From Alcaligenaceae bacterium (GTDB taxonomy: Bacteria; Pseudomonadota; Gammaproteobacteria; Burkholderiales; Burkholderiaceae_B), in assembly GCA_012512545.1 (NCBI GenBank), contig JAAZDZ010000049.1, positions 1 to 10,285 on the forward strand: a stretch of DNA of 10,285 nucleotides. Direction: 5' to 3'. The notes beneath the pieces are model-generated. The model saw only the letters and a program-made list of their open reading frames with translations. It was not told the DNA's origin and did not search any database. Made by a program: the position numbers and the translations under genes. Shown here piece by piece: positions 1,349 to 3,178 of this stretch (position 1 is the stretch's first letter; every line of letters starts with the position of its first letter).

Positions 1349-1393
1349 CAAAGCCGGGGCGCGGACCTGCCATCCGGAGTCGGCAGAGCGTTC

Positions 1394-2176
1394 CTAACGG
1401 CTGGTAGTGGCTTCCAGGCTGCGCATGACTTCTGCCTGCACGGTTTCCCAGATCTGGGATTTCAGCTCGTTGTAGCGCGGAGAAAGCTGCACAGCGGCAT
1501 TGCGCGGCATGGGCAGATCGTTATGCAGATCGGTAACAATGCGGCCCGGGCGCGCGCTCATGATCAGCATGCGCGTCGAAAGCAGCAATGCCTCATCAAT
1601 GGAGTGGGTAATAAAGACAATGGTCTTGCCGCTTTGCTCGTAAATGCGCAAAAGCTCGTCCTGCAGAACCTGCCGGGTCATCGCATCAAGGGCAGCGAAA
1701 GGCTCATCCAGCAAAATGACATCGGGGTCGTTGGCCAGCACGCGGGCAATCGAAACGCGCTGGCGCATGCCGCCGGACAGCGCATTGGGAAATTTGTCCT
1801 CAAAGCCCTGCAGCCCCACCATATCAATGAAGCGCCTGGCCGTCTCGTTACGCTGGCTCTTGCCGATGCCTTTCATCTTCAGGCCGAATGCCACGTTCTC
1901 CAGCACGGTAAGCCACGGAAACAAGGCATATTGCTGAAACACCATGCCGCAATGCGGCTCCACCCTGGTGACTTCACGCCCATTGACCACAATGCGGCCT
2001 TCCGTGGGGCGGATGAAGCCCGTAATCAGGTTCAGCAAAGTGGACTTGCCGCAACCCGATGCCCCCAGCAGCACGGTGAACTCGCCTTGCTTGATTTCAA
2101 GATCGACATTCTGCAGGGCCTGGAATTCGCCAAAATGCTTGGACACCCCCTGAATGGAAATCATGGATTCGCTCAT
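1394..2176 (-). CDS. ABC transporter ATP-binding protein, nitrate/sulfonate/taurine type
   Basis: This is the cytoplasmic ATPase subunit of an importer in the SsuB/TauB/NrtD group. It has 260 residues, a normal length, and every catalytic motif is intact: Walker A GASGCGKST (38-46), Q-loop VFQQ (79-82), signature LSGGMRQR (133-140), Walker B VILLDEP (153-159) with E158, D-loop ALDA (162-165) and switch H191. The frame is open further upstream, but the ATG at 2176 is chosen because GAGG lies about 8 bases before it and MSESMISIQGVSKHF is a family-like N-terminus. This ATG overlaps the TGA of the upstream gene as ATGA, so the two genes are translationally coupled. The substrate cannot be read from the ATPase. 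Its partner permease is truncated and fused (2173-3018) and no binding protein is present, so the gene may be a relic, may serve another permease, or may be at an early stage of decay. Confidence 0.93.
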   Translation of the reverse strand: MSESMISIQGVSKHFGEFQALQNVDLEIKQGEFTVLLGASGCGKSTLLNLITGFIRPTEGRIVVNGREVTRVEPHCGMVFQQYALFPWLTVLENVAFGLKMKGIGKSQRNETARRFIDMVGLQGFEDKFPNALSGGMRQRVSIARVLANDPDVILLDEPFAALDAMTRQVLQDELLRIYEQSGKTIVFITHSIDEALLLSTRMLIMSARPGRIVTDLHNDLPMPRNAAVQLSPRYNELKSQIWETVQAEVMRSLEATTSR

Positions 2177-3018
2177 TGCTGCCACCTCAGAATGTGGTTC
2201 TCGATCAACCGGAAGACAAAGTCGGTGATCAGCACAGTAATGCTGATCATCACCATGCCCAGCACGACCACTTCCGTCTGGAAGAACTCTTTGCCGTTCA
2301 TGATGAGAAAGCCCAGACCTTCGCGCGCTGCGATCAGTTCCGCCGAAATCACGCATGTCCAGGCCAGGCCCAGAATCACCTTCATGCCGCTGAGGATCTG
2401 CGGCAGGCTGCCCGGCAGAATGACCTCGCGCATCACCTGCCAGCGGCTGGCGCCCAGGTTCTGCGCCGCTCTGATCAACAAAGGATCTACATTACGAGTC
2501 GCCTCAATGACGTAGACCAGCGCGGGGGCGAAGGTGCCCATGAACACAATGCTGTATTTCTGGGTTTCGGTAATGCCGAACCACAGCAGAGAAAGCGGAA
2601 TCCAGCTCATGGAAGGCAGAGGTCGCAAGAACGACAGCAGCAGCTGGCTGGCCGAAGCAGTCACCTTCTTGGCGATGGCCGGCCCCGCGGTAGCGGCAAA
2701 GGAATCAATCATCCCCACCCGTATGGCGGGGCGGCTGGCAAGATCGGCTTCGCGCACATCGGACACCAGACGGTCGATGTCGTCAACAATAGGCCGTGCG
2801 CGGCGACTCAGGGCAATGCCTGCGGGCGTCAGCGTGAAGGGGCGATGGGCGCGATCGAATACCTGGGTGCCAAGAATGCGCTCCACCTGGGCCAGCGCCT
2901 GCGAAACCGCCGATTGCGTGATTCCGAGCTTATCAGCGGCCCGCGAGACATTGCCGGTATCGGCAACCGCCTCGAAAATGCGCAGCATGCGCACATCCAG
3001 CGCCCCACCTTGCTTCAT
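2173..3018 (-). CDS. In-frame chimera: LysR DNA-binding domain joined to C-terminal part of an ABC permease
   Basis: The 281-residue frame has two unrelated halves. Residues 8-70 are a LysR-type winged helix (LRIFEAVADTGNVSRAA, then ITQSAVSQALAQVE, then FDR-HRPFTLTPAG). The linker helix follows, and residues 98 to about 128 look like the first strand and helix of a LysR effector domain (IRVGMIDSFAATAGPAIAKK). From about residue 130 it is an SsuC/TauC-type permease: LRPLPSMSWIPLSLLWFG, the EAA loop (RAAQNLGASRWQVMREVILP, about 183-202), and hydrophobic segments near 158-171, 213-229 and 250-266. Missing are most of the effector domain and roughly the first 100 permease residues, normally two membrane helices. 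The junction lies near 2626-2650, at a short CTG run. The 3' end overlaps the ATPase start as ATGA. The best explanation is a deletion that happened to keep frame, giving a non-functional relic. An expressed membrane-tethered DNA-binding protein is possible but unproven. Confidence 0.85.
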   Translation of the reverse strand: MKQGGALDVRMLRIFEAVADTGNVSRAADKLGITQSAVSQALAQVERILGTQVFDRAHRPFTLTPAGIALSRRARPIVDDIDRLVSDVREADLASRPAIRVGMIDSFAATAGPAIAKKVTASASQLLLSFLRPLPSMSWIPLSLLWFGITETQKYSIVFMGTFAPALVYVIEATRNVDPLLIRAAQNLGASRWQVMREVILPGSLPQILSGMKVILGLAWTCVISAELIAAREGLGFLIMNGKEFFQTEVVVLGMVMISITVLITDFVFRLIENHILRWQQ

Positions 3019-3126
3019 GCCGCGCCCCCAACCGTTGATTTATCAAAATTGGTTCTAATGTTAACGATTGGAAGGGCTAACGTACATCAACTTAAGAAAA
3101 ACTAATAATTACTATCAGGACGACTC
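3019..3126. promoter_or_regulatory. AT-rich gap upstream of the LysR start; probable old divergent control region
   Basis: This stretch is visibly richer in A and T than its surroundings. LysR regulators are usually divergent from a target gene and bind the shared gap. On the minus strand TTAACA (3064-3059) and TAAATC (3042-3037), 16 bases apart, form a weak -35/-10 candidate for the LysR start at 3018, though the leader would be short. On the plus strand TAATAAT near 3101-3109 is a -10-like run before a Shine-Dalgarno-like CAGGA and the ATG at 3127. CCAAT occurs twice as a direct repeat on the minus strand at 3051-3072, and GTTAAC is palindromic. No single T-N11-A operator stands out. The functional call is inference. 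Confidence 0.35.
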
Positions 3127-3147
3127 ATGAAACCATGCCCCACCTGA
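3127..3147 (+). pseudogene. Possible 5' stub of a lost gene divergent from the LysR gene
   Basis: An ATG at 3127 is preceded by TATCAGGACGACTC, which has AGGA at good spacing, and by an AT-rich promoter-like run. It looks like the start of a real rightward gene divergent from LysR, which is where a LysR target normally sits. The frame stops after six codons (TGA at 3145-3147) and soon runs into the 3' end of moeB. I read it as the first few codons of a gene removed by deletion or insertion. It is very short and could be chance. Confidence 0.22.
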
Positions 3148-3178
3148 AAATAACGGTATGAAATGGTGTCTGACCTTA

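Follow-up and report, generated by a model that had tools for sequence, protein, structure and literature searches.

An in-frame LysR–ABC permease fusion frame in a member of the Alcaligenaceae, probably the scar of a deletion within a transporter operon

Introduction

In membrane-bound one-component regulators, e.g., those of the CadC/ToxR type, a cytoplasmic DNA-binding domain is joined to membrane segments. This architecture is also present in the fusion described here, as far as can be told from its sequence, where the DNA-binding domain comes from a LysR-type regulator and the membrane segments from an ABC permease of the SsuC/TauC type. Chimeric genes and pseudogenes can also arise by deletion between neighbouring genes, and in the present locus colinear neighbours are likewise joined in frame. 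No description of a regulator built onto a transporter subunit was found in the literature searched. A staphylococcal DNA-binding protein (PMC9223772) has no bearing on the fusion, and the name Sao, which that protein has in common with SaoP of NCBIfam, was discarded as evidence on it.

In comparison to a LysR-type regulator the fusion has kept HTH_1 and the linker helix, whereas LysR_substrate (PF03466), which Pfam detects at residues 97-285 of the intact LysR protein P0123, was not found in it. In comparison to an SsuC/TauC-type permease it is without residues 1 to ~102 and thus without the first two of the membrane segments detected. Residues 127-281 of the fusion align to residues 118-271 of TauC (NCBIfam NF007545) and to residues 102-253 of SsuC (NCBIfam NF008470), although the fusion scores far under both cut-offs, as does the intact permease P0004. 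Among the 51 solved structures listed as related by sequence, CmpB and a nitrate permease correspond to the permease half and BenM and other LysR proteins to the LysR half, and none spans both halves.

Results and Discussion

The window (the whole stretch of 10,285 nucleotides that was analysed) contains an ORF that had been proposed in a sequence-only reading to be a LysR DNA-binding domain fused in frame to the back half of an ABC permease. This proposal is confirmed by a frame of 281 codons that is open, carries both Pfam domains and has parent proteins with 95% and 98% identity to its two halves. The fusion is encoded on the minus strand; the strand was absent from the earlier finding. HTH_1 (PF00126) was detected by Pfam at residues 10-67 (E 5.3e-22) and BPD_transp_1 (PF00528) at residues 115-276 (E 4.2e-23), and each score clearly exceeds the curated cut-off. 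The latter match spans positions 11-182 of the 184 positions of the profile, and its first part falls on LysR-derived residues, as true permease sequence is not reached before residue 127. The winged helix and the linker helix are complete, and the LysR sequence is followed only to residue 128 of 320. The permease-derived part includes a cytoplasmic loop that we take to be the EAA-type loop. The start codon of the ATPase gene overlaps the stop codon of the fusion by four bases (ATGA), and this ATPase is 85% identical to the ATPase encoded 3' of the permease in two of the relatives described below (L023 and L024). The ORF is interrupted neither by a stop codon nor by a frameshift, which fits a recent deletion, but also a kept protein.

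Table 1. Positions of the fusion ORF, its parts and the adjoining features in the window
Feature	Position	Strand	Basis or remark
Fusion ORF, 281 aa	2173..3018	(-)	ATG at 3018, TGA at 2175-2173; single open in-frame ORF
LysR-derived part (winged helix, linker helix and, of the effector domain, the first strand; residues 1-128)	2635..3018	(-)	P0123 match and HTH_1
Join, codons 127-128 (CTG CTG) and T of codon 129	2634..2641	(-)	compatible with both parents
Permease-derived part, residues 127-281 and stop (permease residues 101-255)	2173..2640	(-)	P0004 match and BPD_transp_1
ABC ATPase, apparently intact, same operon	1394..2176	(-)	ATG at 2176
A+T-rich stretch upstream of the fusion (G+C 0.41)	3019..3178	(-)	presumed lysR promoter region

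Both halves could be assigned to full-length proteins by direct comparison. Residues 1-128 of the fusion are 95.3% identical to residues 1-128 of the LysR protein P0123 (320 aa; 6 of 128 positions differ), and residues 127-281 are 98.1% identical to residues 101-255 of the permease P0004 (255 aa), with three differences in 155 positions that are all V to I. In stretches of 128 and 155 residues, chance could not nearly account for such identity. A search with the whole ORF against ~5.8 billion proteins yielded 950 matches, and among the best 120 of these, which were listed, the top ones are 255-aa permeases with 97-98% identity that cover 55% of the query. With residues 1-126 as query 252 matches were obtained, and the top ones among the best 120 listed are LysR proteins of 320 aa with 95% identity, one of them from Achromobacter sp. 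F4_2707. The nearest relatives of the two halves (P0122-P0124 with 95% for LysR and P0003-P0005 with 98% for the permease) may come from different genomes, which counts against the deletion, as the same would be seen if sequences of two organisms had been joined. For several of the listed LysR and permease proteins a common length of the longest contig suggests that both are possibly encoded on the same contig, e.g., the LysR protein P0127 and the permease P0004 (both 68,150), with 86% and 98% identity to the respective halves of the fusion, and the LysR protein P0128 and the permease P0009 (both 403,973).

Composition gave no sign of a foreign origin of one half, since the GC3 values of the LysR half (0.72) and of the permease half (0.77) are alike and show no break; the ATPase, ThiF and CtpA genes have values of 0.71-0.73. 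The total G+C content is 0.64 in the LysR part and 0.57 in the permease part, and 0.57 was also obtained for the ATPase gene.

To the sequence-only reading a deletion scar was the default explanation, and the organization of the corresponding genes in relatives supports this. Scanning of genome contigs with P0123 revealed three loci, in Herbaspirillum sp. 3R11 (L023), Comamonas sp. BIGb0152 (L024) and Pelistega europaea (L025). When the 268 genomes belonging to the family of the window were searched with the same protein, 23 had a match at E <= 1e-60, and 15 of these (L036-L050) encode a LysR protein of ~50% identity or more over nearly the full length. When only matches of >30% identity were taken, lysR, the binding-protein gene and the permease gene were separate and colinear on one strand in 18 of 18 loci, the permease in L036-L050 being truncated where the stretch ends. 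L025 and L037 gave identical numbers and are probably one genome, so that the 18 loci would represent 17 genomes. In all five loci that were read far enough (L023-L025 as well as L088 and L089, which are longer re-reads of the L044 and L036 loci) the permease gene is then followed by the ATPase gene. The binding protein of L023 belongs to the NMT1 family (PF09084). The intact Burkholderiales operon (L023, L024, L025) has the same parents, order and strand as the window, but all four genes are separate and complete, whereas the window is without the stretch from lysR codon 128 to permease codon 102.

In two further genomes (G010 and G029; L021 and L022) binding protein, permease and ATPase genes occur without the adjacent LysR gene seen in the 18 other loci, and in L021 the nearest LysR protein is only 32% identical and encoded several kb away. 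The link between regulator and operon is therefore not universal. In L044 (G220:C1:239281-240228) the LysR match has one TAA within the matched frame.

Comparison to L023, L024 and L025 showed that 2006, 2001 and 1908 bases, respectively (~1.9-2.0 kb), are absent from the window. These bases encode the LysR effector domain, the complete binding protein and residues 1 to 100-102 of the permease, and they include the intergenic region; no binding-protein gene lies between the LysR and permease parts in the window. The earlier estimate that about 100 permease residues with two helices are missing agrees with this. Five hydrophobic segments were detected in P0004 by a Kyte-Doolittle scan, of which the first two (residues 7-35 and 69-92) are lost and three remain in the fusion according to this simple hydropathy scan. 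PF00528 begins at residue 81 of P0004, and one of the lost segments therefore belongs to the conserved core of the permease.

In our judgement the fusion ORF is quite probably a scar that was left when ~1.9-2.0 kb were recently deleted in frame within the operon. The starting point would have been an operon of the TauABC/SsuABC-like type with the order lysR, substrate-binding protein, permease and ATPase, from which the parts listed above (in the permease, residues 1 to ~102) would have been removed. A short sequence common to both ends may have allowed them to be joined by illegitimate recombination or by slippage during replication, and the frame would have been retained by chance (one in three). 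As the frame was kept, a polar effect on the coupled ATPase gene would not be expected.

At the join the LysR sequence ...QLLLWSGL and the permease sequence ...DPLLSFLRPL are combined to ...QLLLSFLRPL. Either parent could have supplied the two leucines at positions 127-128 and the first base of codon 129, which places the join at about 2634-2641, well inside the region 2626-2650 where the sequence-only reading had expected it. At the matching positions of the three named relatives 4, 1 and 1 bases are shared, and this microhomology, weak where it is readable, counts against the deletion. If both parents had the codons of the window, the microhomology in the window's lineage would amount to 7 bases (~7-8 at most), and a short direct repeat at the join is possible.

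The same join could have been produced during library preparation or metagenome assembly, as a chimera formed within one organism or between two operon-bearing strains. The source is a fragmented draft (G000; 580 contigs with 2,645,666 bases, completeness 81.7%, contamination 2.63%) of which the window is one whole contig (C483), the join occurs on this contig only, and the unmatched nearest relatives of the two halves would fit such an origin. However, short-read assemblers join on words typically of 21 or more, and the shared sequence at the join is below this length. In addition, the frame is kept and the two halves are alike in GC3. Had an intact copy been assembled, a contig of G000 with the lost pieces would be expected, but none was found, which in an incomplete genome is not decisive. 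In this assembly P0123 matches C483 (residues 1-128) and then only unrelated LysR proteins, the next best match having 29% identity, and P0004 matches C483 (residues 85-255), all else being 28% or less (six matches). With the binding protein of L023 only two matches were obtained, the best with 25% identity (E 4e-10); given the completeness of 81.7%, absence from these searches is no proof. Taken together we consider a chimera unlikely and infer that the join exists in the cell.

When the same junction was looked for in other strains, as had been proposed, no second case was detected among the family and order genomes and the protein matches listed. Among the best 120 of the 950 matches to the whole ORF only the window's own protein (P0002) has both domains, and the others listed carry PF00528 alone. 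The best 120 of the 252 matches to residues 1-126 gave no further fusion either. In both of these searches candidates had to have 0.55-1.75 times the length of the query and to share short words with it. In the family 45 of the 268 genomes, including G000, match the fusion at E <= 1e-55. The permease-bearing genomes other than G000 (44 of 44) match the query only from residue 84 or later, i.e., with the permease alone, and none of them has a second fusion. When 399 genomes sampled from the order were searched, four matched, and the three besides G000, which are also among the family genomes or belong to their genera, again showed the permease only. The seven other genomes of the genus gave no match to the fusion at E <= 1e-55.

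Several candidates for further fusions were dismissed. Long frames of 646 and 641 aa around the permease in two family genomes contain a normal, separate permease gene, and their remaining part overlaps the binding-protein gene read in another frame, so that they are no fusions. The truncated LysR matches P0164, P0172, P0178 and P0229 do not contain permease sequence; the ends of P0171 and P0178, judged by eye, look unrelated, as would result from a frameshift.

In a working fusion the last membrane segments of the permease would anchor the LysR winged helix, and the protein would sit on the translationally coupled ABC ATPase and bind the operator of the operon or act as dominant-negative partner of another LysR protein. 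We regard such a function as highly improbable. A membrane-tethered DNA-binding protein on an ABC ATPase had been put forward from the sequence as topologically possible, and to this extent the idea stands: the frame is open, and with two of five hydrophobic segments lost the N-terminus could stay cytoplasmic. Furthermore, the winged and linker helices are complete, the EAA-type loop and the ATPase, whose ATG overlaps the fusion stop, are kept, and the permease part differs from P0004 only by V to I exchanges. However, each of the searches described above gave the fusion as a singleton, and the effector domain, a core permease helix and the binding-protein gene are lost. The few differences to the relatives would mostly predate the deletion and are therefore silent on selection after it. 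A functional fusion conserved among relatives was rejected as the main reading because neither the protein matches listed nor the family and order genomes included a second example. A working regulator is thus possible on topology and unsupported by anything positive, and that its DNA binding is steered by the state of the transporter or by ATP hydrolysis is, if anything, still harder to credit. If made and working, the fusion would represent a transporter subunit that directly carries a regulator.

For an importer the ATPase is intact, whereas the binding protein is absent and the permease is incomplete in its membrane segments. Formation of a working importer with the fusion permease would be very unlikely, because neither the binding protein nor one segment of the permease core is left. 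The product of the deletion would presumably do nothing useful: as it has no ligand-sensing domain and has lost two of five membrane segments, and as the binding protein is absent, the fusion is most likely a remnant without function and not a novel type of protein. As a remnant it has little import beyond illustrating how an operon and its own regulator can collapse into one open frame, which domain-based annotation would call a fusion protein.

The cassette in the window is flanked on one side by what we take to be the end of argB and a HAD-type hydrolase gene and on the other side by a ThiF-family gene (PF00899), beyond which presumably ctpA-like and envC-like genes are located. In five genomes of the same genus (G001, G003, G004, G005 and G006) the HAD gene and the ThiF gene lie next to each other in convergent orientation, the matched stretches being 6-96 bases apart and enclosing no cassette. 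In G002 they are 2.5 kb apart, with a presumed amidase-like and a presumed TctC-like gene in the gap, and in G007 neither the HAD nor the ThiF gene was found. As the sites in the same genus are empty or occupied by other cargo, the operon seems to have been inserted at the HAD-ThiF site in the window's lineage, with the deletion occurring then or later.

It had been anticipated that a relative with separate lysR and permease genes and the same flanks would confirm a deletion. The separate genes are present in 18 of 18 loci, but an intact copy of the operon with the flanks of the window was not found among the loci examined; the named intact loci have other neighbouring genes than the window, or the flanking genes could not be detected within the stretch that was searched. 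That no intact locus among those examined shares these flanks, and that the DNA compared included no very close intact relative, counts against the deletion.

Within the genus the gap between the HAD and ThiF genes varies in cargo, comprising the ABC cassette (positions 1349-3178 of the window), the amidase-like and TctC-like genes (G002, L075 2390-4830) or, in five genomes, almost nothing. In the HAD ORF (554-1348) matches of relatives start at residue 13-26 and mostly omit the N-terminal stretch, and its true start is probably further in than 554.
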